Below, piece after piece: positions 14,547-47,353 of a stretch of DNA of 52,663 nucleotides. The DNA is taken from IMG/VR virus record IMGVR_UViG_3300033144_002182, positions 1-52,663 of that record. The stretch is one strand, 5' to 3'. The position numbers were made by a program, and so were the translations under genes. The notes beneath the pieces are model-generated. The model did not search any database, was not told where the DNA came from, and was given only the letters and a program-made list of their open reading frames with translations. This DNA is from a virus. Position 1 is the stretch's first letter; every line of letters starts with the position of its first letter.

Positions 14547-14565
14547 CAACTATTCAATCGGAGCC

Positions 14566-25350: not shown

Positions 25351-25826
25351 GCTTCACTACCGCCACACCGCCACGTCTCTCTGAACTCGCGTCGGACATT
25401 GTTACAACGCTCGACGTAGCCTCCATGCAAGCCAAGCTCGGCGGGACGGGTTTAGTTGTGGCGGGACTTATTACCGAAACCCCTGTCTTTGCCGCTGGCA
25501 GTGGGAAAATCGGACGCATTATTGTTATCCGGCGCGACGGGCCTTTTCCCGGTTCAAACACCGACCTTACCCGAGTATATTCGCCCCAGTTCAATCTCCG
25601 CGTCGATTGCCTGAAACCAACGCCCACTTTTGACCCGGATCTATTCCTGTCGAATCTCCACGCGGAAATCTTCACCCTCCTTGAAGGCTATTCGCCAACG
25701 ATCACTTACGGAAAGGTCACACACCCGTTCCGTCGTATCGGCCCCCCTTCGACTCCGCGTGAGGACAAGCCCGGAAAGTATTTCTACTCGCGCTCTCTTT
25801 TCAAGATTATCGTTGAACCGGCATAA
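25347..25826 (+). CDS. Tail terminator-like protein (probable)
   Basis: 159 residues. Helical start (PPRLSELASDIVTTLDVASM), a long strand region (GRIIVIRRDGPFPGSNTDLT, FNLRVDCLKPTP), a helix (LFLSNLHAEIFTLLEGYSP) and closing strands (YSRSLFKIIVEPA). This alpha/beta order matches siphophage tail terminators, which cap the tube and bind the neck. Position between gp10-like and tail-tube genes fits. Confidence 0.7.
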   Translation: MSFTTATPPRLSELASDIVTTLDVASMQAKLGGTGLVVAGLITETPVFAAGSGKIGRIIVIRRDGPFPGSNTDLTRVYSPQFNLRVDCLKPTPTFDPDLFLSNLHAEIFTLLEGYSPTITYGKVTHPFRRIGPPSTPREDKPGKYFYSRSLFKIIVEPA

Positions 25827-28800
25827 TGGCACGTTCCTACCGAGTTGGCCCGGCTGTAATCCTGATTGCAGACAATCTCTCTGATCCTTCCTCAGAGTGG
25901 ACAGAACTCGCGTACATGAAAGAGGGAGTACGGGTAGGAAGATTCCATAGCCGAGCAGCACGGGGCCGTGTGGATCAATACGGGCCTGTGGCGACCGCCG
26001 AGGGGATAGCCTATGCACCAGCCCCAATCACCGTCTCCGCAAGCTGTACCGAACACGAAGCCCAGCGTATCGCCCTTCTCCTTCAAGGCGATTACACGAG
26101 CCAATGGGTTCGGGCGGCGGGGAATCTGATAACGGAGCCCGAAGAGTTTGACCACGCTAACTGGTCGAAAAACCAATGCTCTATTTCAGCCGACGTGCTT
26201 ATTGCCCCCGATGGAGTATTGCTGGCCGACAAACTAGCCCAGACATCCGGCATAGATCACTATATGCTGCATTCGTTCTCGATGGCTACCGGCGATCTTG
26301 TTGCCAGTTGCTTCGGGCGTTGGGTTGAAGGAAACAACGAATGGCTCGACATGAGCATTGCTGGCGACGGTGGCTCGAACGGATTCAAGGGCTGGTTTAA
26401 TATCCGAACGGGCAAGGTCGGGACGGCCACAACATTCGGTGCCGGATATTCGACCCCTACACTTTCGATAGAGCATTATGGAGAGGGCTGGTTTCGCTGC
26501 ATTATGCAAGGCGATATGACGGCCAATTCCAGTCCAGTTATTGTTCTTCGGACAACGGACGCCGATGCGGTAACCACTTCTCCTATCGGTGGCTCGATGT
26601 ATTTCTTCGGAGCCCACGTGAAGGCAGGAACGGTTACACCAGACTACTTCGTTGGCGATCAGTTACGTGAAGCCGTAGCCCTTCCGTCGAAAGTCAGAGC
26701 CAAGTCTATCAAGGCCATTGCCGTCGTTCCGTTTATGGAATATGAACTGGGGTCTAAATCGTGGGCCGGAGCGGAACACCCGCTCTTTATGAGTCACGCC
26801 TATATCACGATTCAGCAACTTCGCGTCAGCAACGTAATCGACGCGCAAGGCGATTTACATACGTACCAGATCGTAATTCGTCGTGCCATGAAAAACGACG
26901 ACTCTTCGATTGCAGGTTACGGCCAACCGTCAATGCTCGGCGTCGAAAGCCAGAGCATTCAATTCGATTGGAAACCTTTGTGGGACGGCATCGAACCCGC
27001 GATATGCGCGGGGCGTGACGTGGCAGTATTCAACCGTAATTTTTCGGGCCGTTATCACGATCAGTCTGGAATCGTTCGCAGCAAGGGCGATGATGTATTG
27101 AGGATTCACCAGTACGGTGTTCCGGTTGTGACTGCGGGGCATAATACCTGTATGCAATCCTCGATCTTCGACGATGCGGTATGGAATAAATACGAATGCT
27201 CCGTGGCAGGCGGGTATACAAGTCCTGTTGGCGGGTCTAATGGGTTCAAGATTACCGAGTCTGGCACCACGGACGCCCACGGCGTAGTAGACGGTATTTC
27301 GGGCCGCTATATGGCTGGCAAGTTAATGACGCACTCCTGCTACGCCAAAGCGGGCACCCGTAACCTTGTTTTTCTCCAATTCAATGATAATAGCAGCAAT
27401 TCAATAAATACATGGTTCGACCTTACCGCTGGCACCGTGTTGACAGAAGCGTCCGGCGGCGGAGTTACAGATCGTGCCTCTGGAATCGTGGATGTTGGAA
27501 ATGGCTGGTATCGAATCTGGCACCAATGCAGATACCCCAAAGACGCTGGCGTTGAGCAGTGGCACAAAGTCTATTTAACGGACACCGATGGCGTAATCTC
27601 CTACAATGGCGATGGCGTGTCCTATGCGTATATCGCCGGAATGCAAGTAGAAGAAAGCGGTGTTCTGGGGCCGTATGTGGATGTGCCTGATTCGTCGCCG
27701 CCGGTACTTATGGCCGAACCCACTTGGGTTGATGGTCAATGCGGGGCTCTCATGGAGCAAGGCAGGACAAATCTCTCCCTATGGAATATCACTCCGGGGG
27801 CTAACTCCAACTGGTCTACAACTACCTCTCGCGGCTCGTTTGATGTGGGCACAACGGGCGTAGCCATTGCCCCCGATGGAGCAATGGAAGGATCGAAACT
27901 CGTTGCAGATGCTACGGCGGCAGATACCCACGGATCGACACACAACAGAATTACCGCCACCGTTGCTGAGAAGTATTACACGTTCTCGATTTATGCTAAA
28001 CAAGCTGAAATCCGATACTTCGGGATCCGAATAAACAACGAGGCGGTGTCTGTAACCGAGGGGGCAGAAGCGATATTCGACTTAGAGCTTGGTATTGTCG
28101 AAAAATCTCGCGTGGTATGGGCTGGCGGTGGGTGTTCTCTTGTTCAAACGCAGATCGAAGAGTGCGCCTTTGGCTGGTATCGGTGCCAGATAACAATTCT
28201 CTTTTCTGCTACGTCGGACGCGGATTTGTTCACGGCATTATATCTGTATGACGGGCCTGAATATGCCGACATAAACTGGGACGGCGACTCAGAAAGCGGC
28301 CTGTTCTTGTGGGGCGCACAGGCCGAAGAGGGCTCCCCGGCAACCTCGATGATTACTACTGGCGCAAGCACCGTTCTCCGGAATAACGATATTATCCAGA
28401 TGGCTCACCAGTGGGCGTATTCAGCCGAGCAAGGCTTCACGCTCTTGGTCCAGATCCACCGTCTTTGGGAGGACTTAAACGTCGACCCCTCTGGATGGGT
28501 AATTGTGTACGGAGATTATCCGAATACCGCTGCGGGAGAGTGGGCGATAGCTATGACGTACAACTCTGACCGAAGGGCCGGTATCAATATGGAAGTCGAC
28601 GGGGCTGCTGCTATACAGTTAGTGGGCGGGATTAGGTACGAGGATATTGATGCCGTGAATCCACGCGACATTGAATTGATGGTGACCTTTGACGAGGACG
28701 AACCCGCGTGGCGCGGCCATGTTCAACACAAAGATGGAGAGCTTGCTTTTACAACGGCTGCACAAGAGTTAGAAGATGGCGACTTGCTTGCTCTCACGCC

Positions 28801-28912
28801 CGGCGGCTTCGGATTCCAGACCATTTCCAATCCCCCCTCGATTGTGATTAGGCAAATCATCGCCGTTAAAGGCGTTCTTACGTGGGATCAGATGCAAAAT
28901 CTGAAACGGTAG
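25826..28912 (+). CDS. Enlarged tail-tube paralogue carrying three adhesion modules and a lectin-like end
   Basis: 1,028 residues. The start MARSYRVGPAVILIAD and RAARGRVDQYGPVATAEG (about 43-60) match the tail-tube gene at 29023 (MAKVYRIGPAYCFWGD; QIARGRVDQFGPIPMAG). That body is interrupted by module A (about 100-283) and resumes (PSKVRAKSIKAIAVVPFM). Modules B (about 440-622) and C (about 649-846) follow, then a LamG/concanavalin-like C-terminus (FTLLVQIHRLWEDL). Each module has the 'W.........AP.G...D' start, 'GWYR' and 'FWGAQ' elements of phage spike-fibre carbohydrate-binding domains. It probably decorates the tail. Confidence 0.7.
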   Translation: MARSYRVGPAVILIADNLSDPSSEWTELAYMKEGVRVGRFHSRAARGRVDQYGPVATAEGIAYAPAPITVSASCTEHEAQRIALLLQGDYTSQWVRAAGNLITEPEEFDHANWSKNQCSISADVLIAPDGVLLADKLAQTSGIDHYMLHSFSMATGDLVASCFGRWVEGNNEWLDMSIAGDGGSNGFKGWFNIRTGKVGTATTFGAGYSTPTLSIEHYGEGWFRCIMQGDMTANSSPVIVLRTTDADAVTTSPIGGSMYFFGAHVKAGTVTPDYFVGDQLREAVALPSKVRAKSIKAIAVVPFMEYELGSKSWAGAEHPLFMSHAYITIQQLRVSNVIDAQGDLHTYQIVIRRAMKNDDSSIAGYGQPSMLGVESQSIQFDWKPLWDGIEPAICAGRDVAVFNRNFSGRYHDQSGIVRSKGDDVLRIHQYGVPVVTAGHNTCMQSSIFDDAVWNKYECSVAGGYTSPVGGSNGFKITESGTTDAHGVVDGISGRYMAGKLMTHSCYAKAGTRNLVFLQFNDNSSNSINTWFDLTAGTVLTEASGGGVTDRASGIVDVGNGWYRIWHQCRYPKDAGVEQWHKVYLTDTDGVISYNGDGVSYAYIAGMQVEESGVLGPYVDVPDSSPPVLMAEPTWVDGQCGALMEQGRTNLSLWNITPGANSNWSTTTSRGSFDVGTTGVAIAPDGAMEGSKLVADATAADTHGSTHNRITATVAEKYYTFSIYAKQAEIRYFGIRINNEAVSVTEGAEAIFDLELGIVEKSRVVWAGGGCSLVQTQIEECAFGWYRCQITILFSATSDADLFTALYLYDGPEYADINWDGDSESGLFLWGAQAEEGSPATSMITTGASTVLRNNDIIQMAHQWAYSAEQGFTLLVQIHRLWEDLNVDPSGWVIVYGDYPNTAAGEWAIAMTYNSDRRAGINMEVDGAAAIQLVGGIRYEDIDAVNPRDIELMVTFDEDEPAWRGHVQHKDGELAFTTAAQELEDGDLLALTPGGFGFQTISNPPSIVIRQIIAVKGVLTWDQMQNLKR
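26123..26674 (+). repeat. Adhesion module copy A
   Basis: Runs from NLITEPEEFDHANWSKNQC to about DYFVGDQLREA. It contains IAPDGVLLADKL, FNIRTGKVGT, GEGWFRCI and GSMYFFGAHVKAG. It interrupts a tail-tube-like domain, whose two halves flank it. Confidence 0.65.
27143..27691 (+). repeat. Adhesion module copy B
   Basis: From NTCMQSSIFDDAVWNKYEC to about GPYVDVPD. It contains SCYAKAGTRN, FDLTAGTVL, GNGWYRIWHQC, YNGDGVSYAYIAGMQVEES, the same ordered elements as copies A and C and the tail-fibre inserts. Confidence 0.68.
27770..28363 (+). repeat. Adhesion module copy C
   Basis: From NLSLWNITPGANSNW to about SPATSMITTG. It contains IAPDGAMEGSKLVADA, TFSIYAKQAE, FDLELGIVEKS, FGWYRCQIT and SGLFLWGAQAEEGS, the clearest match to the general phage spike-fibre module. 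Confidence 0.7.
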
Positions 28913-30389: not shown

Positions 30390-33300
30390 ATGTCCATTCG
30401 CACCGACGTAGACATTCGTATCGACAAGGCCAAGAAGCGACTTCAAGCCCTGACGGCGGAAACGAAGCGGCAATTCCGTAGACAGAGAACGGCGGTTACC
30501 GGCGAGACTCGCAAAATGGAGGGGGCATACAAACGAGCCTTCACCAATATGGGTATGTGGGCCAAGCGGTTTATTGGTGGCATGGCCGTAGCTGCTGTAT
30601 ACGCGCTAGGCCGAGCATTCGTCGGCACGATACGGTCAGCCGCCGCATTTGAAAAACAGATGGCCGAGGTAGCCACACTGGTTGATACGACAGTTGTGAG
30701 TATTGACCGATTGGCTGATGGGCTCAAACGTATTTCCAAAGAGGCCCCGGTTGCACTCGACGATTTAACACAGGCACTCTATCAGACTATCTCCGCTGGC
30801 ATCGACGCTGGCGATGCGCTGGAAGTTTTGGAGGTTGCAGCGAAAGCCGCCGTAGGCGGAGTTACCGATACCCGTACTGCCGTAGACGGCCTGACGAATA
30901 TCATCAACGGTTTCGGCATGGAGGCGTCCGACGCCACCCGGATCGCTGACCTAATGTTCGTTGCCGTCAAGCGTGGTAAAACCACCTTCGGCGAACTATC
31001 CACTTCTATTGGTCAGGTTGCAGCACAGGCCAATTCGTACAACGTCTCTCTCGAAGATGTATTGTCGGCCACGGCAGCGATCACGCTGACGGGGCTTACC
31101 ACGTCGGAAGCCATAACGCAAATCTCGGCGATCTTTACGGCTGCGGCACGTAAGGGCGCAGACTTCGCGAAAATCGGAATCGACATTACGGAGTCGCTCG
31201 GAACGAAGGGATTACAGCAAACCCTGATCGACGTAGCTGCTGCTGCTGAGAGAACCGACACGGAACTCGTCAAGTTATTCGGGCGCGTTGAAGGAGCGAA
31301 AGCCGTTGTAACACTGACCTCGGTTGCAGCCGACAAATTCTCGAGTATTCTTGACGACATGGGCGATGCTGCCGGGGCATCTCACGAGGCGTTTGTTAAA
31401 ATGATGGGTACGCTCACAAATATGTGGCAGGTGGTTAAGAATAAGCTGAACGTCGCAATGGAAGAGTTTGGATCCAAAATTCTGCCGGGGATCGTGACTA
31501 TGCTCGAACGTATCGACGATATGTTCACCCGCGCCGAGGATAATCCATATACAAAGCTCATCAAGCTGTTTTCTTCCGTCGGAATACCGATTACGCCTCA
31601 CTTAAAAATGGGTGAAGTTCGTTTTGAGTTACAAAAATCGTTCAACGAATTGACGAGAGAGATTGCTGAAACAGAAATCTTTCTTCCTACCGATGCGATC
31701 CGGTCCATTCTGGATAATCCGCTTGATCCGTTTAAGGCTATTGGCCCTGCGCTTACTCAGCCTCTCACTATGGGCATTGATGAGATCGACCGACTATTGC
31801 AGTCGCTCCGAGACTCTGCTATCATTGTTGGCATGGACTTCGAGCGGATAGCACAGAAGTTTCCCGAGGGCGTATCTGGACTCGATGCCATTGGGTTGTT
31901 TGGCACGAAAAAAGACGAATCCGAATATCTCCGACTACAAGAATTATTGATTGCGATTACGGACCAATCCGACGCGCTAGTAAACCTGAAAGCACAGCGG
32001 CAAGCATTAACAGAAGTCACAGCCGGACTAAACATGGAGGACGAAGAACTGCTCGAAAACCTCAAAAGTCTGGAATCTGTTGACATTCCCGAACCCGTTC
32101 TTCACCACGAGAAGTTTATTGATCCTGCGTCTCTCTTCGTCCCGAAGGCTTTGGGCCTAGATCCTGTGTCAGTGAAAGCCGCCGAGACGGCTATGGAAGC
32201 ACTCATGGCAAAAGTAGGCTCTACACTGGCGTTTACTGCCGTGAACATAGCTCGATTCAACGAAGAGGAGGCGGTTATTAAAATGCAATTCCGTGATGAA
32301 CCGGAGTTGATGGAGAAGGCGTTGGATAAGCTGCGTCAGCGTATAGCGAATACCGCCGAAAAGCTGGCTGCGGATTTTGAGGGATCACTAGACTTTCTTC
32401 CGCCGGAACAACGAGCCCGCGTCTTGGCATTTTATAACAAGCTGCGAGAAATGTCCGGGGATATGGAAGAGGACACCAAGAAGATCAAGGCCAGTTTCGC
32501 CGACATTGCTCGTTCTGCCCGAGCCCTTCTGAATCTGGGCGATGTATTCGGAGATATGTCGGATAGCGTTCGTCAACTCGCCACGGGGGTTATTGACGTA
32601 ATCGACAATCTTGGCGCATTGAAGGATGCACAAGAGGCGGGGGCGGGATTACTGGGCACGGCTGCACCGATTATTGGGATCGGTGCCGGGCTACTATCGG
32701 GTATCGGCAGCCTGCTTGGTGGCGGAAGCGATTTCGACAAGATGCAAGCCGAACAGCGCGAAGCCATTCAAGAAAACTCTAAGGCTCTCAGGGATAACGC
32801 AAGGGACATTTCTCGCGCAATAGACAGCTGGATTGCCAGTGCCCGTATCGGGCCGGGTGTTACTGGACAAACCTCCGACGAAGCAATAGCCGCTGCCTCC
32901 CGCCTTTCCGCCATAGGTATTGAGGATAGGGATTTGGCTGCGCAGGATCAGCTACTTCGGAATCTGGGGAGGCCCGTTGTGAATACGGCCCGCCGTGCGG
33001 AGTTGGCTGCGGAGGCGGACGCGCTATTCCAAGCACTGGAAGATACCGGCATCTCTGCATTTGGGGATCTCATGGACCTGTGGGGAAGCATCCTCATGGA
33101 CGAAAGCAATGTTCTTTTCGATGCTATCACACGGATATTTGCCGGTGACGACAATTTCGTGGGAATACAGGGCGTATTGGATCTTCTCGATACCGAGCTT
33201 GGTGGTTTTGGAGATACTGTTGCGGGGCAGATTGCCGAGGCCCAATTCGGTGCGACCTTTGGCGGCTTTTCGGAACAAGAAAAATTCGACCGCTTGCTTG

Positions 33301-34067
33301 AGGGGATGCTGAGTTTGGAGGGGATAAGTCCAAACCTGTTTAGTATGCTCGACATTCTCAGCGGGATAGAGGTCGAAACAAAAGAAGGTCAGGAGGCAAT
33401 CCAGAGTTTCAATGAGACTATCGGGCGATTCCTGCTCGACCCGGAAGAGTTCCTCGGAGCCCTCGGAGAATCCAAGTCGGGCATAGCTCCTGACAAGGCT
33501 TCTTTTCTCGGTGAATTAAGCAGCGAAGAAGTTGAGGCATTGCTGAGTTTCTTGCAGGGATTTCTCACGGGTGACTTTGACGGCGGTGCTGGCGGATCAA
33601 GCACCAGTGCCACTTTTGCCCGGTCGATTACTGAGGTTCAGGCTAATCTCATTGCGGCATTGATGCAGACCGACGTATTCCACAACGAGCGCACGGCCAA
33701 TGCAGCGGAAGCGATCCTTCGGACACTGGATCCAAATGCTGTTATAGGCCCAACGACTGGCGGACTGCCTCCGCCAAATATCCCGTCCGGCGACGGCGGT
33801 ATTCCAACTGGTGCGCCCGGTTCATCACTGGCTGATATTGACTGGCCGGGAGGCTATCCGGGGCCGATCCTCATTAACCCAGACGACGTGCCAGTTCCCG
33901 GCGGTTCTGGCGGAACGAACTCTGGCGACTTCAATGTTTACGTCGGCGGCGTCCTCGTGAACACCGGATTCACCCGAAAGGATATTATCGAGGAAACTAC
34001 CGAGGCTTTAATGCGAGAAATGGAGGACACGTTGGACTCACAAGACTCGCGTATATTCGGCCTGTAA
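30390..34067 (+). CDS. Tail tape measure protein
   Basis: 1,225 residues, the usual length class. The N-terminus is basic/helical, with hydrophobic MGMWAKRFIGGMAVAAVYAL (about 54-73). The TP901-type tape-measure core (about 85-320) reads FEKQMAEVATLVDTTVVSID, APVALDDLTQALYQTISAGI, VDGLTNIINGFGMEASDATR and FGELSTSIGQVAAQANSYNV. Later there are long helices and a hydrophobic Gly-rich segment (LLGTAAPIIGIGAGLLSGIG). It sets tail length; at about 0.15 nm per residue this would be about 180 nm (family rule of thumb). It starts directly after the chaperone stop. Confidence 0.93.
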   Translation: MSIRTDVDIRIDKAKKRLQALTAETKRQFRRQRTAVTGETRKMEGAYKRAFTNMGMWAKRFIGGMAVAAVYALGRAFVGTIRSAAAFEKQMAEVATLVDTTVVSIDRLADGLKRISKEAPVALDDLTQALYQTISAGIDAGDALEVLEVAAKAAVGGVTDTRTAVDGLTNIINGFGMEASDATRIADLMFVAVKRGKTTFGELSTSIGQVAAQANSYNVSLEDVLSATAAITLTGLTTSEAITQISAIFTAAARKGADFAKIGIDITESLGTKGLQQTLIDVAAAAERTDTELVKLFGRVEGAKAVVTLTSVAADKFSSILDDMGDAAGASHEAFVKMMGTLTNMWQVVKNKLNVAMEEFGSKILPGIVTMLERIDDMFTRAEDNPYTKLIKLFSSVGIPITPHLKMGEVRFELQKSFNELTREIAETEIFLPTDAIRSILDNPLDPFKAIGPALTQPLTMGIDEIDRLLQSLRDSAIIVGMDFERIAQKFPEGVSGLDAIGLFGTKKDESEYLRLQELLIAITDQSDALVNLKAQRQALTEVTAGLNMEDEELLENLKSLESVDIPEPVLHHEKFIDPASLFVPKALGLDPVSVKAAETAMEALMAKVGSTLAFTAVNIARFNEEEAVIKMQFRDEPELMEKALDKLRQRIANTAEKLAADFEGSLDFLPPEQRARVLAFYNKLREMSGDMEEDTKKIKASFADIARSARALLNLGDVFGDMSDSVRQLATGVIDVIDNLGALKDAQEAGAGLLGTAAPIIGIGAGLLSGIGSLLGGGSDFDKMQAEQREAIQENSKALRDNARDISRAIDSWIASARIGPGVTGQTSDEAIAAASRLSAIGIEDRDLAAQDQLLRNLGRPVVNTARRAELAAEADALFQALEDTGISAFGDLMDLWGSILMDESNVLFDAITRIFAGDDNFVGIQGVLDLLDTELGGFGDTVAGQIAEAQFGATFGGFSEQEKFDRLLEGMLSLEGISPNLFSMLDILSGIEVETKEGQEAIQSFNETIGRFLLDPEEFLGALGESKSGIAPDKASFLGELSSEEVEALLSFLQGFLTGDFDGGAGGSSTSATFARSITEVQANLIAALMQTDVFHNERTANAAEAILRTLDPNAVIGPTTGGLPPPNIPSGDGGIPTGAPGSSLADIDWPGGYPGPILINPDDVPVPGGSGGTNSGDFNVYVGGVLVNTGFTRKDIIEETTEALMREMEDTLDSQDSRIFGL

Positions 34068-34143: not shown

Positions 34144-37100
34144 ATGGCTAAGATCAATGCAGTAAAGTTATATGACTCAGACCGGATTTTGGTCGGTGAC
34201 CCCGGAGGGGTTTCGATCCTGTCATGTGTCAAGGGAAACATACTTCGCTCACAGAAAATGGGCGAAGCGGAAAGCCTGTCGATAACCTTCAATGCGTGGA
34301 CGGCTGCTGCCACTACCATTGAGGCTGACGGCAAAATGGCGATGCGTCGTCGTCGAATCATCCGTCTCGAATACGACGATGCCTCTTTCCGCGAATACCG
34401 CATTCGGGAATTCACTCGCGATGTGTCGGGCGATGCTGATGCGGTACTGAGGGGCGTTCATCTCCCGAACGAAGAACTACGTCGGCTCCACCCAAAACAA
34501 CACCTTACGGGCGGCTTCACACTTGTTCAGATGCGCCTCATTGGGCTATCTCCGCAAGTAGCTCTCGACGGTCTTTTTGGCGCGACGTGGAACGGCCCCT
34601 CACTCATTAAGGCTGGAACCGTGAATGGTTCGATTACCGTATCTGAGGTGAACCTGTTCACCGACGGCACCCAGTCTTTCGCAGACGTATTGAAGGATCT
34701 CGCTGTCCAGTGTGAAGGCGAAGTCGAACTCAATTATCATTCCGGCTCGGACAAGTACGTCGTAGACATATACCCACAGATCGGGCTCACCTCTGGCGAG
34801 CGTTCTGGCGGCATTGAGCCTGAGAACCGGCCTATTGAAATCGGTGATCTAACGGGCGTTCTGTCAGCGAATAACCGTATGAAAAACCGGCGTCGTTCTG
34901 ACAGCCGCTCGTACTTCTCACGGATCATGCCGCTCGGCGGTGGTGCAGACGACACCGTGACTATTGGCGCAGCCGAATGGACGGTTAACTCCGGTTCTTT
35001 CAATGTCGGTAGCGGGTACACCAAGCTGACGCTTTCCGATGATCCGGTCTATCTCGACGAAGGACAAACAGGCGAGTATTTCGGCAACGGCTCCGAAGGC
35101 TTTGCGCTGATTACGAAATCAACCAGCCCTGATCTGGTTTATGTCTCCGGTAACGAAACGGGTATCGTAGGACAGAAGGGGCTCTTCGCCGATAATTCTG
35201 GTGGCGACGAACTGGTACACATGAACAATCCCGCGGCTCTCGATGGGATATTCGAAAAGGTGCAGCGGTTCTCCAACGTAGGCCCGTTCAAGAACCATGT
35301 ACCCAACGCAGATATTTCGGACTGGTCTGCTGGGCTCCCGGTGAGTTGGTCGAAGATCGTCGGGCCCGAGACGGTCACCGAAAACACCGACGCCCGGTAC
35401 ACTCAGGTCGGAACCAAGAGCGCAAAGATTGTCTGCGGCACCGACGAGGGTTTGCAGGTTGGCATAACCGTCGATGCCGATTCTAATTCATACTGGTCGT
35501 GTTGGGTTTATCTCCGCGTTACGGCTGGCGGCGTGAAATTAGAGTTCCATGACTTCGATGGAATCATCGAGCCTGTCGAGGGAGAAGCCGGATCTACCGA
35601 CAACAATCTACTGGCTATCGTCATTCAGGGACTCGAACCGGCGAAAGGTGCGGGGGCCTTGAAGGTTATTGCTACCGAGCCCGGAACGACGTTCTATCTG
35701 GATGCGGCCACCATGACCAACTCCACGGCGGCCTACGAATTTGTGCCGCACATGGGGCCAACGGGTTTATGGCACGAAACCGCCCGGTTCATACGCGAGA
35801 AAGACGAATACGAGGATGCTTACGAAACGTCGTTTTTGGACGTGTCTTTCAATAACGGCTCGCTCCACGAAGTTGATATTGGCTCATGGGTACGCGTCAA
35901 GGACGTTCCGAATCAAGGCAGCGCATCACACGACATTCAATTCGATGCCCGCGTAATCGAGATTCGCAGTGAAGAGGATCATCATACCGGAGCCTTCAAG
36001 AAGGCGGTCAAAGTATCTCGACGAACGCGCAACTTCACGGATCGTTTTCGAGAGAGGTTACCACAGTACCCCGGAGCCTTTCAGGTAGGCGCAGACATTT
36101 CTCCGTCTAATAATCTTGACGTAGAATGGTTGGCGTTTCAGAGGGGCAGCGGCTCAGACGAATACGGCTATCTCCGAGGCATCCCCGGATATATTGGCGA
36201 GGTACTAGATGTGGAATTTCGTTCCGCCGAAGGAGCGAATGTTCTCTTCGCCGATTCGTGGGGCAACGTCACATACAACGCCGCCTCTGGCTGGTATCAG
36301 CAAGGCGTAAAGCTCCATGCCCGTCGAGACTCTGAATTGCAGATGCGATTCAACTGGGTTGACACGACCAAGAAATCAAATTTCGTAGCGCACCTGTTCG
36401 ACCACGACCTACTTCCTGAGCCGCCGTTCGTTTTGGATTGGTGGTGGAATACAGGTTCTGATCTCTGGGAGCTATTCGCGTCGATCACTCAGGACGAGGA
36501 TTCTCTGTCTACCCAGATATACCTCGACGCCGACGCCGCCGGTTCTCAGATTGTCAATCTGGACTCGTACCTCAAGCGGGTGAACCTCTCTCGCCTCATG
36601 GCCCCGGATGTCACGTGGTCTGCCGGCTCCTCTGACGTGGGCGTTGACGTGAGCGTGAAGGGTTGGTCTGAAACTGGGGCCACAGGAATCGAAGGCACGT
36701 ACAAACAAATCTCAACCAATGTCCCGAGGGAGATCGTAACGGGCAGTGCTACATTTCTGGAATACGAGAACTTCCAGTATGACAATGCTGGATCTATGAC
36801 GGGTCGCGTCGAGCTTCGCCCCGTTCCATATGCTCAGACCGATATGGGTAGCGCATTCTTCCGGTTTGCGCAGGGCTCGCACGTAGCTACCGCCGACGCA
36901 TGGACAGTGCTTGCTTGGGAAGCCGAAGGCGTAGGCACCGGCTGGACTGCCGAAGGTGTTCTGGATAACATTCGCCAAAGTCACCTTCAAACACGTGTCC
37001 TCTGGGCCGACGGATCTCGCGCCGAAGAGAAGCGGGATTTCATCCTCGACCCCGACCGGGTGCCCGAGCCGAAGTTTACGCTCGACTGGTACTGGAACGA

Positions 37101-40100
37101 CGCGAACGATGAATGGGAGATTCGTGCATGGGTTATCCGTGACGAAGATTCCAAATCGGTTCAGATATACATAAATACCGACGCCGTTGGATCTAAGGTG
37201 GTCAATCTCACCGACTATCTGGAAGAGGTTAATATCTCGACGCTCATGGCCCCGGATCGGGTGTGGAGTGCCGGTAGCGAGTTTGACCAAGTGGACGTGA
37301 ACGTAAAAGGCTGGTCTGGTCTTAGCGCGACAGGAATTGAGGGTGCGTACAAAGAACTCACAACAACCGTTCCGCCCGCGCTGAGTGTTGAAAAGCAACC
37401 AGAAGGAGAGCCGTTCAAGGTCACCCCGTCGTCGCTCGATTATCAGCCGTTCCAATACGACAATTCCGGCTCCGAGACGGGGCGCGTTGAGATCCGGCCC
37501 GTTCCGTACAGTGTAAGCAATACGTTCCAGAACGACCCGGAGGATTTCACCACATGGACAGCGGAAAACGCGTCGGTGACCGCTGACGCGGCGGTTGCCC
37601 CGGACGGCACCTTGACGGCTGACAAGTTGAAGGAGAACGGAGCCGTTTCCGCCCATGATATTTTTCAGCAGCGAACCATTAACAGTGGCTCACAATACAC
37701 TATATCGGTATTTGCAAAGGCTGCTGAACGGTCGTTGTTGCGGGTATATCTTGGCGATGGTGGATTTCCGGCGGCGTGTGGCGTGTGGTTTGATCTTTTG
37801 TCGGGAACGGTGGGCTCAGAGGGGTCTAGTATAGACAGTTCTGGCATCACCTACGTTGGCAATGGCTGGTATCGCTGTTGGGCAACCGATACGGCTGATG
37901 CTTCCGGTACTAATTATGCAGCGTTGTTTGTCTGTTTGGAAGATGGGCTCACGGTATATGACGGCGACGGTTCTTCCGGTTTGTATTTGTGGGGTGCGCA
38001 ATTCGAAGAAGCACCCTTGTCGGATTACAGCAAGGCCAACGTCGGATCAGTGTTCTTCCGCTTTGCGCAAGGCGCACAGGTCGGCTCTGGGGCCGCATGG
38101 TCTGAATTAACCTACGAAGCGGAAGGCGCAGGTACGGGCTGGACGGCGGAAGGTGTGCTCCATGAAACACGGAATTCACACCTTCAAACGAAAGTTCAGT
38201 GGCTCGACGCGGACCGCGCTGATGAAATCAACGATTTCACGATTGATCCCGATTTAATCCCAGAGCCGCCATTCACGCTGCAATGGAAGTGGGACAGTGC
38301 CCAAAACGAATGGGAAATCCATGCTACCGTTACTCGCGACGACGACTCGCTTTCAGGCAAAGCATACATAACATCCTCGGCCACGGGCTCCGTTCTTTTC
38401 ACGATGGACGACCACATCAACGAGATTAACGTCTCGGTTCTTATGGCTCCTGATCGTGCGTGGCCTTCCGGCAGCGAAGGAACCGTGGCTACCGTAGGAA
38501 TCAGAGGGTATTCCGGGCTTGCCGGTGCTGGAACCGCTGGGCCGTGGGCAGAATTGACGGCTGCGATTCCTCAAAAAGCAGGGGTTCAGTCAGAAGGTGC
38601 AGCCGTTTCGGTGCCTCCGACAACGCTCGATTATCAGAACTTCCAGTACGACGATGGCGGAACGAATACTGGGCGCGTTGAGATTCTCCCCGTGCCGTAC
38701 AGCGTTGTTAATCTCCATTTGTCTCCCGAGGCTTTCGACGACGCGGCATGGGTAAAGACACGCGTGGATATTGCGGCGAATGATTTTGTTGCTCCGAATG
38801 GCACCCTGACGGCGGACAGAATGACGCCTCAGAACACGGCTGGCGGAACGTACTATATGTACGACGGCATCCCGGTCACTTCGGGTCAGGACGCTACATT
38901 TTCTATCTACGTTCGTGCTGCTGGGTATCAGTGGATCTATATGTCGTTTTCAGGAACGGGCGGGGCGTTCGCTGACGACAAGGTGTGGTTCGATCTCCTG
39001 TCCGGCACGATTGGGACGATTGACGCCGACATAACGGCATCCATAGAACACGTCGGCGATGGCTGGTATCGGATAGTAGCCACGCGGGAGGCTCTGGCAA
39101 CCACGTCTGGAACAATCGTATATCTTGCATCCGAGGCTGACGGCGACACGTCTCATTCGCCCGACGGAATAGCTGGTTACCATTTCTGGGGCGCACAAGG
39201 CGAGATAGCTTCTGCGGCCACAGAGTACAATAAGACTCAAACCGGCAGTGCGTTTTTCCGATACGCAGGGGGCGCACAGGTTGGATCCGGCACGGCATGG
39301 ACTGAGCTAGTCTGGGAAGCCGAGGGCGGCGGAACAGGCTGGACTGCCGAAGGCATTTTGCACGAGGTTCGCAATTCTCATATCCAAACGCTCGTTCAGT
39401 TTGTCGATGCTAACCGCGCCGACGAATTTAAGGACTTCACGATTGATCCAGACCTAATACCAGAACCTACGTTTACGCTGTACTGGGTCTGGGTAGTACC
39501 GGGAGCCACCTATGCGCAGGGACAGTGGGAGATTCATGCGCTCATAACCCGAGACGATGATTCTCTTTCGGGCAAGATTTACATGGGTTCTCCTGCCGGG
39601 GGCTCTGTCGTATTTAATATGGCGAATCTGCTTACCGATCTGAACGCATCCGTTTTGATGGTTCCAGACGAAGTATACACGGCGGGTAGCGAGGGTGTAG
39701 TTGTTACCGTGGGCGTGAAGGGATATTCCGAAACTGCTGCCGGTGGGATTGCGGGCGTATGGAACGAGGTTACTGCCGTGGTGCCCCCGAAATCAACCGC
39801 GATTCAACCGGACGCCAGATCGTTTGCCGAATCACTTCAAACACTCGATTACCAGCCGTTCCAATATGACGACGGCGGCAATGAAACAGGGCGGGTTGAA
39901 GTGCGCCCAGTGCCATACGATCCGGCAAACCTGTATCTAAAATCAGAAGAACTCGACGACGCTTACTGGAACAAGACTGAGTGTACGATAGACGCCAACG
40001 CGACGACGGCACCAAACGGAAAGCTGGTTGCCGACCAACTGGTCGAATCCGTGACCGCTTCCACGGCGCACTACGTACATCGCGCACTAACCGTCTCATC

Positions 40101-42630
40101 GGGACTGCCGTATACGTTCTCGTTTTATGCGAAAGCTGCGGGACGTGCATGGATGCGGATTGCCATTCCTTCTGGGACAAGCGTTTTTGAGCCCTCCATT
40201 CTCTTCTGGTTTAACCTAGAAACCGGAGAATTCGGTACTGTCGCCGGAGACGTAGAGGATCACGGCGCGGAGTATGTCGGAAATGGCTGGTATCGAATGT
40301 GGGTCATGGCAACATCCATTGGAGCCGGAAGCGTGAATCCGACGGTTCTTATGGGAGAACTGAACGGACAAAATAATTACACGGGTGACGGTGTTTCTGG
40401 GGCTTACGTGTGGGGCATTCAGGCAGAACAAGCCCTCTCGCCTACGCCTCATAGCCAGATCAACTACGGAAGCGCATTCTTCCGGTTCGCGCAGGGTGCG
40501 CAAGTCGGCTCGGGCCTTGCGTGGACGGAATTAACATGGGAAGCCGAAGGTGCGGGCACGGGCTGGACGGCGGAAGGGGTTCTCCATGAAACAAGAAATT
40601 CTCATATCCAGACTCGGGTTCAGTGGCTCGATGCTGACAGGGCCGACGAGATAGTAGACTTTACGATAGACCCTGACCTGATCCCCGAGCCGCCATTCAC
40701 GCTTTCATGGGAATGGAACACAGGCTCGGATCTCTGGGAGATTCATGCCATTGTGACTCGAGACGACGACTCGTTATCCGGGGCACATTATCTCTCGCCC
40801 GGAGTCGGCAGCGACCAGTTTGAAATGACGGATTATGTCAACGACGTGAATCTTTCTCGTACTGCTACCCCGGTTCATACGTACCCTGCTGGCAGCGCAA
40901 ATACGGCGGTTACCGTAGGAATCAGGGGCTATTCAGAAGCCTCCGGCGGCGGACTTACGGGAGCGTACAAGGAACTGGTTACAAACGTCCCGCAGGAAAC
41001 GCCAGTAGCGACCCTTGACACACAGATTCAGTATACCCCGTGGCAAGAGGATCGCGGCGGTGGCGAAGGTGGTTATCTACGGATAAGGCGCGTTCCGGTC
41101 GGCAGTGCGGGAATATCAAATGTTCGGTACAAAATCAAATCGGGCGGCAACATCGGTGACGCACAAGCCTTTGAAACTGATCCTACGTTTGATGGCGGTG
41201 GTGCGGGATCGGGCTGGCTGATGGCCGTGGCCCTGCACCCGGAGAGAAACTCCCAAGTAGAAACCCATGTTCTCTGGACAGATGGCTCTCGCGCTACGGA
41301 CGTGCGGTTATGGTCATTTGACCACGACAGGAACCCACTTCCAAAGGCTACGACCGAATGGGTTTGGTCGACAGGATCTGGCAAGTGGGATCTGTATATG
41401 ATTATCGTACGGGACGAGGATTCGCTTTCATGGGAGGCCGATTTAACTGGTGCGACCGGATCCGTATGGTCGAATTTCGTGGCGTCGATTTCACGAATCA
41501 ATTTGTCCAGTGCTACATGGGCCGGTGATAACAGGAGGTGGAATCCCGGCAGCGCAGGAACCCCCGCGACTATCGGGATCAAAGGGTGGTCAGCGGCGGG
41601 TGCCACAGGATCAGCGGGTACGCGCTTCACGCTCTCGACGGTGGTTCCTGAACTCAAAGAGTCAGATCATATTCAGAACAGCGCGATTGGTAGTGCTAAG
41701 ATCCAAACGGGCGCGGTTGTTGCTGGAAAGATTAGTGACGAGGCGGTTGATTGGGCGCAGCTTAAATCGACAATCTCGCCGATCTTTGTGGCTGCTGCAT
41801 TGCCGGGTGTGGGCAGCGGGTACGCCGTCGTTTACCTGACGGCGAATGACGGCTCGAACGATGCGCTACATCTATATCGAAACACGGGCGCGGCATGGCA
41901 GATCGTCCGGGCGGAAGTGCTGGCGGATCGCGTGATTGCGGCGACCTTGTCCGCGATCGTGGGCTCTATGGGTGCGCTTCTTATCGACAACAAGATTTCA
42001 GTCGATGCGAATGGTTATATCACAATGGGCGGGCACACCGGTAACGGCTCGATCATAACAGGCGTTCAGGTTGGGTACTTGAACAGGGATCTCTCGATCA
42101 CGGACTACGGACTCGCGGCGGCGATCAGTGGCGCGGAAGTGATTCGCTTGACGGCGGGCGAGGGGCTCGTATATCAGGCTGGCGGTGCGGGCGTTTACCG
42201 AACGACGTGGGAGAATGCGAGCGGCGAAACGACCGCTGCTATCGCAGGACTCACGACACAAGCTGGCTTATATATGTACGCACAGGCGGGATCGGGTGAC
42301 GATCCGATGCGCGTCTCGCTCAACTCAGTGTCCGAGGACAGCTTCGGCCAATGTGCCCTTGATGTTCACGCGGACGACCATTTCACGACGGGCAATACTC
42401 ACGATCCGTTTACGAGTATTTACGGCATTCCGGGCACCGCTCGGCTTCACGTGGGGCTCGCGGGCGTTGGCACCAACCGGCCAAAGGCGACGGGATCAAC
42501 CGGCGTCTTGTGGGTCAATGGCGATTTCCGGCTTGACACGACGGTGGCCGCATCGAAAACAGCCACAGGCTCGTATTTGAAGGTGATCGTTGGAACAAGA
42601 ACGGATTATTTTTTACAATTATACAAGTAA
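34144..42630 (+). CDS. Giant tail-tip/fibre protein with six repeats and three nested modules
   Basis: 2,828 residues. The N-terminal ~300 residues resemble tail-hub proteins (VSILSCVKGNILRSQKMGEA, then FADVLKDLAVQCEGEVELNY). About 400-640 is a beta/hub region. About 659-2505 is six copies of a unit with 'Y..FQYD..G...GRVE.RPVPY', 'AGTGWTAEGVL', 'RNSH.QT.V.W.D..RA', 'IPEPPFTL.W.W', 'RDDDSLSG' and 'APD..W.AGSE' blocks. Units 3, 4 and 5 each hold one extra ~175-residue module after RPVPY. The C-terminus (about 2506-2828) starts HIQNSAIGSAKIQTGAVVAG, a common fibre stalk. It probably binds the host surface. Confidence 0.85.
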   Translation: MAKINAVKLYDSDRILVGDPGGVSILSCVKGNILRSQKMGEAESLSITFNAWTAAATTIEADGKMAMRRRRIIRLEYDDASFREYRIREFTRDVSGDADAVLRGVHLPNEELRRLHPKQHLTGGFTLVQMRLIGLSPQVALDGLFGATWNGPSLIKAGTVNGSITVSEVNLFTDGTQSFADVLKDLAVQCEGEVELNYHSGSDKYVVDIYPQIGLTSGERSGGIEPENRPIEIGDLTGVLSANNRMKNRRRSDSRSYFSRIMPLGGGADDTVTIGAAEWTVNSGSFNVGSGYTKLTLSDDPVYLDEGQTGEYFGNGSEGFALITKSTSPDLVYVSGNETGIVGQKGLFADNSGGDELVHMNNPAALDGIFEKVQRFSNVGPFKNHVPNADISDWSAGLPVSWSKIVGPETVTENTDARYTQVGTKSAKIVCGTDEGLQVGITVDADSNSYWSCWVYLRVTAGGVKLEFHDFDGIIEPVEGEAGSTDNNLLAIVIQGLEPAKGAGALKVIATEPGTTFYLDAATMTNSTAAYEFVPHMGPTGLWHETARFIREKDEYEDAYETSFLDVSFNNGSLHEVDIGSWVRVKDVPNQGSASHDIQFDARVIEIRSEEDHHTGAFKKAVKVSRRTRNFTDRFRERLPQYPGAFQVGADISPSNNLDVEWLAFQRGSGSDEYGYLRGIPGYIGEVLDVEFRSAEGANVLFADSWGNVTYNAASGWYQQGVKLHARRDSELQMRFNWVDTTKKSNFVAHLFDHDLLPEPPFVLDWWWNTGSDLWELFASITQDEDSLSTQIYLDADAAGSQIVNLDSYLKRVNLSRLMAPDVTWSAGSSDVGVDVSVKGWSETGATGIEGTYKQISTNVPREIVTGSATFLEYENFQYDNAGSMTGRVELRPVPYAQTDMGSAFFRFAQGSHVATADAWTVLAWEAEGVGTGWTAEGVLDNIRQSHLQTRVLWADGSRAEEKRDFILDPDRVPEPKFTLDWYWNDANDEWEIRAWVIRDEDSKSVQIYINTDAVGSKVVNLTDYLEEVNISTLMAPDRVWSAGSEFDQVDVNVKGWSGLSATGIEGAYKELTTTVPPALSVEKQPEGEPFKVTPSSLDYQPFQYDNSGSETGRVEIRPVPYSVSNTFQNDPEDFTTWTAENASVTADAAVAPDGTLTADKLKENGAVSAHDIFQQRTINSGSQYTISVFAKAAERSLLRVYLGDGGFPAACGVWFDLLSGTVGSEGSSIDSSGITYVGNGWYRCWATDTADASGTNYAALFVCLEDGLTVYDGDGSSGLYLWGAQFEEAPLSDYSKANVGSVFFRFAQGAQVGSGAAWSELTYEAEGAGTGWTAEGVLHETRNSHLQTKVQWLDADRADEINDFTIDPDLIPEPPFTLQWKWDSAQNEWEIHATVTRDDDSLSGKAYITSSATGSVLFTMDDHINEINVSVLMAPDRAWPSGSEGTVATVGIRGYSGLAGAGTAGPWAELTAAIPQKAGVQSEGAAVSVPPTTLDYQNFQYDDGGTNTGRVEILPVPYSVVNLHLSPEAFDDAAWVKTRVDIAANDFVAPNGTLTADRMTPQNTAGGTYYMYDGIPVTSGQDATFSIYVRAAGYQWIYMSFSGTGGAFADDKVWFDLLSGTIGTIDADITASIEHVGDGWYRIVATREALATTSGTIVYLASEADGDTSHSPDGIAGYHFWGAQGEIASAATEYNKTQTGSAFFRYAGGAQVGSGTAWTELVWEAEGGGTGWTAEGILHEVRNSHIQTLVQFVDANRADEFKDFTIDPDLIPEPTFTLYWVWVVPGATYAQGQWEIHALITRDDDSLSGKIYMGSPAGGSVVFNMANLLTDLNASVLMVPDEVYTAGSEGVVVTVGVKGYSETAAGGIAGVWNEVTAVVPPKSTAIQPDARSFAESLQTLDYQPFQYDDGGNETGRVEVRPVPYDPANLYLKSEELDDAYWNKTECTIDANATTAPNGKLVADQLVESVTASTAHYVHRALTVSSGLPYTFSFYAKAAGRAWMRIAIPSGTSVFEPSILFWFNLETGEFGTVAGDVEDHGAEYVGNGWYRMWVMATSIGAGSVNPTVLMGELNGQNNYTGDGVSGAYVWGIQAEQALSPTPHSQINYGSAFFRFAQGAQVGSGLAWTELTWEAEGAGTGWTAEGVLHETRNSHIQTRVQWLDADRADEIVDFTIDPDLIPEPPFTLSWEWNTGSDLWEIHAIVTRDDDSLSGAHYLSPGVGSDQFEMTDYVNDVNLSRTATPVHTYPAGSANTAVTVGIRGYSEASGGGLTGAYKELVTNVPQETPVATLDTQIQYTPWQEDRGGGEGGYLRIRRVPVGSAGISNVRYKIKSGGNIGDAQAFETDPTFDGGGAGSGWLMAVALHPERNSQVETHVLWTDGSRATDVRLWSFDHDRNPLPKATTEWVWSTGSGKWDLYMIIVRDEDSLSWEADLTGATGSVWSNFVASISRINLSSATWAGDNRRWNPGSAGTPATIGIKGWSAAGATGSAGTRFTLSTVVPELKESDHIQNSAIGSAKIQTGAVVAGKISDEAVDWAQLKSTISPIFVAAALPGVGSGYAVVYLTANDGSNDALHLYRNTGAAWQIVRAEVLADRVIAATLSAIVGSMGALLIDNKISVDANGYITMGGHTGNGSIITGVQVGYLNRDLSITDYGLAAAISGAEVIRLTAGEGLVYQAGGAGVYRTTWENASGETTAAIAGLTTQAGLYMYAQAGSGDDPMRVSLNSVSEDSFGQCALDVHADDHFTTGNTHDPFTSIYGIPGTARLHVGLAGVGTNRPKATGSTGVLWVNGDFRLDTTVAASKTATGSYLKVIVGTRTDYFLQLYK
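36118..36750 (+). repeat. Tail-fibre repeat unit 1
   Basis: First, most diverged unit, starting near LDVEWLAFQRGSGSDEYGYL. It contains HARRDSELQMRFNW, LPEPPFVLDWWWN, QDEDSLSTQIYLD and the closing VKGWSETGATGIEGTYKQIS. Confidence 0.7.
36751..37428 (+). repeat. Tail-fibre repeat unit 2 (no insert)
   Basis: Contains GRVELRPVPYAQTDMGSAFF uninterrupted, then GTGWTAEGVLDNIRQSHLQT and APDRVWSAGSEFDQVDVNVK. It serves as the empty-site reference for units 3-5. Confidence 0.75.
37429..38619 (+). repeat. Tail-fibre repeat unit 3 (with nested module)
   Basis: LDYQPFQYDNSG...GRVEIRPVPYS, then the foreign module 37513-38030, then KANVGSVFFRFAQGAQVGSG and the rest of the unit. Confidence 0.75.
37513..38030 (+). 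repeat. Nested adhesion module 1
   Basis: From VSNTFQNDPEDFTTWTAENA to PLSDYS. It contains VAPDGTLTADKLKENG, ISVFAKAAERSLLR, FDLLSGTVGSEG, VGNGWYRCW and SGLYLWGAQFEEAPL. It falls between RPVPYS and the unit's continuation, with the reading frame kept. Confidence 0.75.
38620..39837 (+). repeat. Tail-fibre repeat unit 4 (with nested module)
   Basis: LDYQNFQYDDGG...GRVEILPVPYS, module 38704-39231, then KTQTGSAFFRYAGGAQVGSG and the rest of the unit. It includes a small extra loop VVPGATYAQGQWEIHA not seen in the other units. Confidence 0.75.
38704..39231 (+). repeat. Nested adhesion module 2
   Basis: From VVNLHLSPEAFDDAAWVKTR to ATEYN. It contains VAPNGTLTADRMTPQN, FSIYVRAAGYQWIY, FDLLSGTIGTID, VGDGWYRIVA and AGYHFWGAQGEI. 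Confidence 0.75.
39838..41008 (+). repeat. Tail-fibre repeat unit 5 (with nested module)
   Basis: LDYQPFQYDDGG...GRVEVRPVPYD, module 39922-40455, then QINYGSAFFRFAQGAQVGSG and the rest of the unit ending TGAYKELVTNVPQE. Confidence 0.75.
39922..40455 (+). repeat. Nested adhesion module 3
   Basis: From PANLYLKSEELDDAYWNKTE to TPHS. It contains APNGKLVADQLVES, FSFYAKAAGRAWMR, FNLETGEFGTVAG, VGNGWYRMWVM and SGAYVWGIQAEQALS. Confidence 0.75.
41009..41657 (+). repeat. Tail-fibre repeat unit 6 (diverged, no insert)
   Basis: Starts TLDTQIQYTPWQEDRGGGEG. It keeps GSGWLMAVALHPERNSQVET, VRDEDSLSWEADL and IGIKGWSAAGATGSAGTRF, but the RPVPY element is changed to RRVPVG. Confidence 0.7.
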
Positions 42631-42891: not shown

Positions 42892-43412
42892 ACGGCGTAG
42901 CAGAAGAAAACGTAGCCGCCGAAATCACGGCTGGCGAATTACAGCGGGCACTTGCACAACATGGCGAGAGCCCCACCCCCGAGGCCGTAGCGGTTTTGGC
43001 ACGGCCCGTTGGCCCCCCGTCGCCAGACAGTAAACCGACTATTGAACTCTCTCGCGACCAGCGTAACGAGGTTCGCTCGGGTATCTTGCGCCGTGCGCTG
43101 GAAACTATGTTAGCGGCCCCGGCACAAACAGAAGCGACCACGCTTACAAAAGTGATGAACGCCACCTCTGGGCTGCTTCTCACTGAGCAATTACAAATCT
43201 TTTTAGCGTGTCGCGATCTCGCGCATGGGGTTGAGGATAAAACGGTGCGGGAGAATTTCATCGGACAAATAGGTCTTGCCGTTGCCCATGCAAAGGTTAA
43301 GCTATTCGAAGGCGGCAACATGGGGCTGGCGGACGCCGAACAAGCGATTGCAGACGTGGAGGATGCAGGAGAAAAGGCAGCACTATACCTTCAACTGACA
43401 AAGAGGCTGTGA
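42870..43412 (+). CDS. Hypothetical helical protein
   Basis: 180 residues, helical with a Pro-rich linker (LARPVGPPSPDSKPTIEL). The C-terminal half is hydrophobic helices (TKVMNATSGLLLTEQLQIFL, NFIGQIGLAVAHAKVKLFEG) and ends YLQLTKRL. No signal peptide or clear membrane segment. The stop overlaps the endolysin start. It may be a tail or lysis accessory; unknown. Confidence 0.65.
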   Translation: MDNREHVNGVAEENVAAEITAGELQRALAQHGESPTPEAVAVLARPVGPPSPDSKPTIELSRDQRNEVRSGILRRALETMLAAPAQTEATTLTKVMNATSGLLLTEQLQIFLACRDLAHGVEDKTVRENFIGQIGLAVAHAKVKLFEGGNMGLADAEQAIADVEDAGEKAALYLQLTKRL

Positions 43413-43864
43413 TGTATACCAATGGTCATTTCAACGATGTTGTAAAATACAACCTCCGGGCGAGCGGCGAGAACTTCAAGCTCTCAGAGAACTTTACTCT
43501 GGGCGAAGTGGCCTGTAAAAGCGGATCTCCGATTGTTCTTATGCACCCGCTCGCGGTAGCGATGGCGCAGGAAATCCGCGACATTATCTCGAAGAAAAAG
43601 AAAAAGAGCATCCCCGTAAGCGTGAACTCTGGCTACCGGGAATGGCTGCACCACAAGGCCACTTACAAGAAGATCAAAAAACCCGTCAAGAAGGGCTCTG
43701 CTCATTTATTCGGGATGGGCCTCGACCTCTCCGTAACCCCCAAGTTACACAAGCTACTTATTGAAGTGGCCGAGAGCCTGAACCCCGGCGGTCTAGGATT
43801 ATACGACACCTTTATTCATGTTGACCTGATCGGCGAGAATCGCCGCTGGGACAACAGAACGTGA
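43409..43864 (+). CDS. M15-family peptidase endolysin (probable)
   Basis: 151 residues. It has the peptidase M15A layout: FTLGEVACKSGSPIVL (29-44), IPVSVNSGYREWL (68-80), the zinc motif SAHLFGMGLDLS (97-108, with H99 and D106) and TFIHVDLIGENRRW (134-147, with H137). These proteins cut peptidoglycan peptide cross-links, and one placed beside membrane genes after the tail genes is most likely the endolysin. No signal peptide, so it needs the holin. Its start and stop both overlap neighbours. Confidence 0.9.
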   Translation: MMYTNGHFNDVVKYNLRASGENFKLSENFTLGEVACKSGSPIVLMHPLAVAMAQEIRDIISKKKKKSIPVSVNSGYREWLHHKATYKKIKKPVKKGSAHLFGMGLDLSVTPKLHKLLIEVAESLNPGGLGLYDTFIHVDLIGENRRWDNRT

Positions 43865-45216: not shown

Positions 45217-45294
45217 ATGCCACTTGAAGCTATTTTTGTCCTTGCCGGAATCGCCGGTATTATCGGTCTGTACTATTTCAAAACAAGAAAATGA
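45217..45294 (+). CDS. 25-residue single-pass membrane micro-protein
   Basis: Frame starting MPLEAIFVLAGIAGIIGLYY and ending FKTRK: a complete transmembrane helix with a basic C-terminal anchor. CGAGGT lies 7 nt before the ATG, and the TGA overlaps the start of the glycosyltransferase gene (ATGA). Site, SD and overlap all support translation. It could be a small holin/antiholin partner or a membrane anchor. Confidence 0.65.
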   Translation: MPLEAIFVLAGIAGIIGLYYFKTRK

Positions 45295-45947
45295 CCTTTG
45301 ACCCGATTTATTCTTCGATGGCTACCATACCCGGAAGGGAAAAGGAATGCGCGAACACAACGGAATCTATCGTTTCCCAGTGTGACCGCGTTGTCGTTAT
45401 GCGAGGGCCGCTCGGCCCTGATGGGCGAACCGACGATGCACGTAAATTCTTTGGTGTAAATGACGCTCCCTGTTATCGTTTCATCTGCGACGATGATCTT
45501 ATTTTCCCTCCGGGTTGCCTCGAATGGATGCGTGAGTGGGTCGAAGAGTATGACCGCAAATGCGTAATCGTTTTGGGCGGCGGCATAATGAACGAAACGC
45601 CTGTCGGGTCCTATTACAGAGGCGGTAGAAGAGTTCGTTATGGGGCTCTGAATCAAGTAGATGAGGCGGTCTGGGTGAACGTGCCCCTGACGTGTGGGCT
45701 CATGTACCATACTGACACTATCCAGCCGCGTCTCGAAGATTTCCCGGCGCACAATATGGGCGACATCCTTTTCGGCATCCTCTGTCAAGCCGAAGAGGTG
45801 CCCATTATCTGTCTGCCACACAAGGCGGACTATATCACATATCAGGATTCCGTCGGAACGGACACGATCTGGGATCGAGAACACAGCGACGATCCAATCC
45901 AGACCCAGTACACAAACTCTATCCAGTGGAATCTTCTTACCCTGTAA
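45291..45947 (+). CDS. Glycosyltransferase-like protein (GT-A type)
   Basis: 218 residues. It opens with a family-2-like strand (IYSSMATIPGREKECANTTE) and then has FICDDDLIFPPGCLEWM (64-80), where the DDD fits the metal-binding DxD motif. Later comes an acceptor-type region with HNMGDILFGILCQAEEVPII. Shorter than many GT2 enzymes. Its position at the head of a four-gene block (three transferase-like, one FkbM methyltransferase) suggests glycan assembly. Sugar and acceptor are unknown. Confidence 0.75.
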   Translation: MTFDPIYSSMATIPGREKECANTTESIVSQCDRVVVMRGPLGPDGRTDDARKFFGVNDAPCYRFICDDDLIFPPGCLEWMREWVEEYDRKCVIVLGGGIMNETPVGSYYRGGRRVRYGALNQVDEAVWVNVPLTCGLMYHTDTIQPRLEDFPAHNMGDILFGILCQAEEVPIICLPHKADYITYQDSVGTDTIWDREHSDDPIQTQYTNSIQWNLLTL

Positions 45948-46648
45948 CCAATATCAGATACGGCCCTACTGCTCAAGAAGTAGTGGTTGAGATTCGTGAC
46001 CCCGAAGAACACATCCAAAAACACTGGCTGGCTGGCTGTTTTTACGAATCCCGTGGCGGCGGGTTGCTCCCGTATATCCGGCACCTCAACGCCCTCGCTG
46101 GGCCATTCCGGGTTTGTTACGATATTGGTGCCTCTATCGGTAACCATACCCTTTTCATGTCCCAGATACTCGGCGCGAATTACGTGCTGGCTATTGAACC
46201 ATACTTGCCCTCCTACGACCACCTCGTTTCCAACCTCGCTCACAACCACGTGTCGAAAGACCGGGTCTGGACGCTGAACATGGCCCTATCAGACGAGCAG
46301 GTCTGGGGCGATGCCGAACTATACGGTCAGGAGAGCGGAAACAACGTCGGCATGGTTCATTTCACGAAATCCCAATTTGGCAGTCCTGTTTATTGTGATA
46401 CGCTCGACACGATGGTTTCTAAGTATGGCTGTCCGCTCCCCGACTACGTGAAGATCGACGTGGAGCATATGGAGGAACAGGTCGTCGCCGGGATGCTGAA
46501 TACGATCAGGGCTTGCTCTCCAATTCTATCCATCGAGCTTGAACGAGGAACCGAGGTAATGGATAGTATATTATCCCCGCTCGGGTATCGCCGCGATCCC
46601 GTTGTGCTGAATCACACGCCAACGTATGTTTACAAGCCGGACAAATGA
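45926..46648 (+). CDS. FkbM-type SAM-dependent methyltransferase
   Basis: 240 residues from GTG 45926 (22-nt overlap). SAM-binding motif I is VCYDIGASIGNHTLF (63-77), followed by YVLAIEPYLPSYDHL (motif II, acidic after the strand). The family-typical PDYVKIDVEHMEEQVVAGM lies further on, then SPILSIELERGTE. FkbM-family enzymes usually O-methylate sugars or hydroxyl groups in natural-product and glycan pathways. Together with the flanking transferases it may cap or decorate a sugar. Cytoplasmic, no signal peptide. Confidence 0.85.
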   Translation: MESSYPVTNIRYGPTAQEVVVEIRDPEEHIQKHWLAGCFYESRGGGLLPYIRHLNALAGPFRVCYDIGASIGNHTLFMSQILGANYVLAIEPYLPSYDHLVSNLAHNHVSKDRVWTLNMALSDEQVWGDAELYGQESGNNVGMVHFTKSQFGSPVYCDTLDTMVSKYGCPLPDYVKIDVEHMEEQVVAGMLNTIRACSPILSIELERGTEVMDSILSPLGYRRDPVVLNHTPTYVYKPDK

Positions 46649-47352: not shown

Positions 47353-47353
47353 T

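Follow-up and report, generated by a model that had tools for sequence, protein, structure and literature searches.

Phages often rely on many weak sugar contacts for adsorption. Among the systems closest to the locus described here, carbohydrate-binding modules (CBMs) are well established in tail proteins: the evolved Dit, Tal and decorated MTP (tube) proteins carry one or two of them (often BppA-like) on a galectin or gp27-like domain, several in a loop, where they aid adsorption (PMC7291167; PMC6669499). In the megatron of roseophage R4C, a tail hub protein, a carbohydrate-binding domain (residues 482-629), which has been compared with CtCBM11, interrupts another domain (residues 212-481 and 630-903) (PMC10276861). 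A related domain occurs outside the tail, in the head fibre of RcGTA, the best-studied relative of the module described here. This fibre binds the capsule polysaccharide of the host (PMC10218006; PMC7296036), and residues 2-10 alone of it are resolved by cryo-EM (PMC7296036). Loop-inserted CBMs in tail proteins are already known; what sets the present locus apart is the occupation of the same site in three successive repeats, by cargo that has diverged.

The window, i.e., the whole stretch of DNA that we analysed, covers a viral record 52,663 bases long. Its tape measure gene (30390-34067; TIGR01760, E 3e-34) is directly followed by a very long open reading frame (ORF), and this position after the tape measure makes the product a probable tail hub. 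The first 654 amino acids have no match in family searches. Residues 376-550 were suspected of forming a further carbohydrate-binding-like domain, for which neither Pfam nor the PDB sequences gave any support. The middle of the protein consists of six tandem units (Table 1), whose repetition is far above chance (E down to 6e-74 in a masked self-comparison). The motif xPVPY occurs at residues 892, 1118, 1515 and 1921 (as LPVPY in unit 4), and the element GSxFFR at residues 902, 1301, 1701 and 2109. The two are separated by five residues in unit 2 and by 178, 181 and 183 residues in units 3, 4 and 5, so the same-point insertion into three consecutive repeats claimed by the initial annotation stands, and its estimate of about 172-178 inserted residues agrees with the net gain of 173-178 once the replaced five-residue turn is subtracted. 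The span given there (37429-41008) equals units 3-5 (37438-41031) to a few codons. The insert-bearing units were correctly recognised; there are six repeats and not only the four treated there, as units 1 and 6, which like unit 2 have no insert, had been overlooked.

Table 1. Positions in the window of the two module-bearing tail genes, their repeat units and their module copies
Feature	Position	Strand	Evidence
Second tail-region ORF, 1028 aa, three module copies	25826..28912	+	NF048003 252.8 bits, 3 stretches; PHROG 5939
Module copy q1 in this ORF	26120..26668	+	
Module copy q2 in this ORF	27140..27679	+	
Module copy q3 in this ORF	27764..28384	+	NF048003
Tail protein gene, 2828 aa, probable tail hub / central fibre	34144..42630	+	Open frame; first gene past tape measure
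Unit 1, without insert, aa 655-871	36106..36756	+	Unit alignment; 35-45% identity to other units
Unit 2, without insert, RPVPY-AQTDM-GSAFFR	36757..37437	+	Motifs, unit alignment
Unit 3, insert-bearing	37438..38628	+	Motifs, unit alignment, structure prediction
Insert of unit 3 (178 aa), predicted CBM-like beta-sandwich of the GTA spike fibre family	37510..38043	+	NF048003 128.4 bits; AF2 pLDDT approximately 95; Z 21.9 to 9b45
Unit 4, insert-bearing	38629..39846	+	Motifs, unit alignment
Insert of unit 4, 181 aa	38701..39243	+	NF048003 119.3 bits
Unit 5, insert-bearing	39847..41031	+	Motifs, unit alignment
Insert of unit 5, 183 aa	39919..40467	+	NF048003 120.9 bits
Unit 6, without insert, aa 2297-2500	41032..41643	+	Alignment; approximately 35% identity to other units

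What is the inserted module? All three inserts pass the NCBIfam model NF048003, "GTA_spike_fiber" ('phage head spike fiber domain'; 182 positions, curated cut-off 36 bits), at 119-128 bits and close to full length (model positions 11-165, 7-174 and 8-169 for units 3, 4 and 5, respectively), which bears out the spike-fibre family named for them at the outset. They also match PHROG 5939, a tail protein family. Against the Pfam family CBM_4_9 (PF02018), the whole protein scores 18.9 bits and unit 3 scores 17, both below the gathering cut-off of 25.9. An alignment profile of unit plus modules has good matches to four PDB sequences: E217 gp45 (8env), Pa193 gp46 (9b45), a tail fibre, gp17 (9occ), and Rcc01080, the head fibre of RcGTA, which is matched at E 2e-61. 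In BLAST comparisons with RcapMu and Snoke, the alignments appeared to begin upstream of the insert, but this proved to be spurious extension.

In an AF2 model of unit 3, the insert is predicted with a pLDDT of approximately 95 across residues 40-190 (approximately) of 397. The structural match spans approximately residues 25-201 of the model, which are the junctions expected from the alignment. The best fold match is Pa193 gp46 (residues 200-389; Z 21.9, rmsd 2.4, 174 residues aligned), the second is E217 gp45 (Z 19.1), and solved members of CBM16, CBM22, CBM61 and CBM4 come next (Z 10-12, rmsd 2.6-3.3). The model thus supports a separate, portable domain that would fold on its own, as had been proposed.

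The seat of the insert is seen less sharply. Unit 2 modelled alone has a mean pLDDT of 42, and domain A (the host domain) of unit 3 is modelled at approximately 40. Because the unit 2 model is poor, we claim no fold for the unit. In this model the insertion site falls near the turn between two strands (residues 16-26 and 29-37; pLDDT approximately 50 there), and this low-confidence strand assignment, together with the alignment, suggests that the insert likely sits in a hairpin loop of domain A. For the unit core, no relatives turned up in phage records, in viral contigs (pattern scan), in genome contigs or among the fetched locus ORFs (profile), and for the N-terminus none in phage records or in viral contigs (pattern scan); the scans used short peptide patterns that distant kin could escape.

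The locus shares something with each of the described systems. Rcc01080 contains a domain of the same NF048003 family; there, however, it belongs to a free head fibre, whereas here three copies lie inside the repeat units of a tail protein. Pa193 gp46 and E217 gp45 (baseplate triplex subunit) resemble the present protein in the fold of the module and in its internal position in a tail structural protein, but have it in single copy, in an unrelated host protein of a contractile-tail baseplate. The R4C megatron has, as is proposed for the present protein, a carbohydrate-binding domain interrupting another domain of a tail hub protein, yet only once and without tandem repeats. The evolved Dit, Tal and MTP proteins place CBMs in hub and tube proteins, but as one or two modules and not as three at the same site of tandem units.

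The putative hub gene is not the only carrier of the module in the window. In addition to the three copies noticed there by the initial annotation, three more, which it overlooked, lie in a second tail-region ORF (Table 1). Its place before the tape measure gene and an N-terminal pattern make a tail tube protein possible; the searches gave no family match supporting this identity. If it is the tube protein, there would be many modules per virion.

Is the module mobile? We compared pairs of other virus contigs at the DNA level, using masked flanks, and found the identities of module and flank to be uncoupled in both directions. Modules of L005 and L043 are only 56-60% identical in nucleotide sequence despite a C-flank at 96%, and the module of L058 and L083 is at 59% despite an N-flank at 99%. 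Conversely, L052 and L078 have flanks at 74% and 53% around a module at 96%. In L029 and L032, module 1 is common to both (89%) and modules 2 and 3 are only 47-55% identical. In these contigs, tail proteins trade the spike-fibre module as a cassette, which makes a replacement of inserts in our window plausible, if unproven. A family uncoupled from its flanks in so many contigs amounts to a mobile cassette of the sugar-binding type. Uncoupling of module and flank is also seen among L029, L032 and L041. In L004 (2543-8496), each of three ORFs has several spike-fibre modules, and in one of them a domain of approximately 150 amino acids behind each module is repeated as well (38.6% identity). In a 2536 amino acid ORF of L067, two modules are each preceded by a 43 amino acid linker (residues 1064-1106 and 1290-1332; 63% identical), which looks like a joint duplication of linker and module.

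The three insert-bearing units have diverged very unevenly. Their host domains are 75-83% identical before the insert and 77-91% after it. The inserts, described as diverged from the start, are only 35-36% identical to one another, compared with 46-55% for the second domain (domain B) of the same units. The background identity of the module family is 33.2% (SD 5.6), which the insert-to-insert values equal. Where units 3, 4 and 5 agree in residue along the part of domain A behind the insert, 36-48% of the codons agree as well; chance agreement calculated from codon usage would be 39-40%. Synonymous sites are therefore saturated: the duplications must be old, and the likeness of the domain A copies reflects selection. 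We reject a recent duplication on the grounds of this saturation, and an assembly artefact is unlikely, since most synonymous sites differ between the copies.

How many insertions took place? On a tree of the units with inserts removed, units 3-5 form one clade (support 95/93) and the presence of the insert needs a single change, which favours one insertion followed by duplication over three independent hits. We consider it probable that the putative hub gene encodes a tail-tip protein in which an ancestor shared by units 3-5 gained a GTA-spike-fibre-type, CBM-like domain in a single insertion, at a turn joining two beta-strands in the first domain of a two-domain unit. The insert-bearing unit would then have been duplicated twice, with the host domain kept under tight constraint and the inserts drifting or being swapped for other family members, and the tail tip would now display them as sugar-binding domains. 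Of the two histories that the initial annotation had left to separate trees, duplication is thus preferred to repeated hits; a third, in which the content of the inserts was replaced after insertion and duplication, was missing there and fits at least as well as either. Independent hits by different family members at the same site would agree with the mobility of the family and with free trees in which the inserts are not monophyletic. They would also have had to strike the same residue three times, always within one clade of units and never in units 1, 2 or 6, and we regard them as very improbable. Only slightly less improbable, to our mind, is that the unit originally contained the module and that units 1, 2 and 6 cleanly lost it. 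Gain and loss look alike on the unrooted unit tree, but three units long separated from one another would each have had to lose the module at one and the same site, unless the root lies between the two groups; moreover, the spike-fibre family is an add-on in many unrelated proteins and the unit is not.

A closer contest is with plain co-duplication, in which the unit was duplicated twice, its inserts simply outpaced the host domain in divergence and no replacement occurred; we give this somewhat less than an even chance. It draws on the same clade of units 3-5, and the saturation of synonymous sites leaves ample time for a fall to 35%, a fall in which domain B of these units has taken part. 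The pairing of units 3 and 5 in the unit tree, itself weak (60/49), is echoed among the inserts, where those of units 3 and 5 lie near each other with a module of another contig (L017) in three trees and that of unit 4 stands apart. In these trees, whose rows were picked for nearness to the inserts, the three inserts are in no case one clade; a single insert clade is nevertheless not rejected by the AU test (p 0.352, 0.315 and 0.216). Against plain co-duplication, the identity of the inserts is no higher than the family background, and for every insert some outsiders are more similar than the siblings, which rank 7-182 among approximately 370. In addition, the unit-4 insert groups with q1 of the second tail ORF wherever q1 is included (95/89 and 98/88), although q1 is a long branch. 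Under the history with replacement, the unit-4 insert would be the best candidate for a replaced one.

Sugar binding is the leading candidate function of the inserts by homology, given the capsule binding of the RcGTA fibre. We infer the tail-tip location, the placement in a loop, the binding of sugars and the choice of sugars alike; on this basis the tail tip would show three different sugar-binding domains per chain, and the gain would be avidity along with several specificities toward the host surface polysaccharide. One module type at the same site of three successive repeats would be a simple route to multiply and diversify sugar contacts. The inserts might instead be structural spacers or assembly contacts. 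The matching module of E217 and Pa193 is located in the baseplate wedge, and the searched passages of the papers on these phages assign no sugar to it; however, carbohydrate-binding modules dominate the fold matches and capsule binding is documented for the related fibre of RcGTA (PMC10218006), and we find the spacer reading unlikely. It is tempting to speculate, as an idea we hold to be rather doubtful, that domain A serves as a permanent docking site, whose conserved frame offers a single loop for the exchange of mobile spike-fibre members, providing three interchangeable sugar-binding slots whose specificity is renewed slot by slot, partly from the copies in the other tail protein. The combination of conserved frame and variable cargo makes such slot-by-slot exchange testable.

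Several other features of the window deserve mention. A gene for an M15-type peptidase (43409-43864; PF05951, 35.3 bits; PHROG 894, endolysin) likely encodes the endolysin. ORF 14503-16242 probably starts later than listed, because its TTG start (14503) falls within a tRNA-Gly (ccc) gene at 14477-14547. Downstream of the lysis region, a run of four ORFs (45291-48259) resembles, by eye, glycosyltransferases and an FkbM-type methyltransferase.
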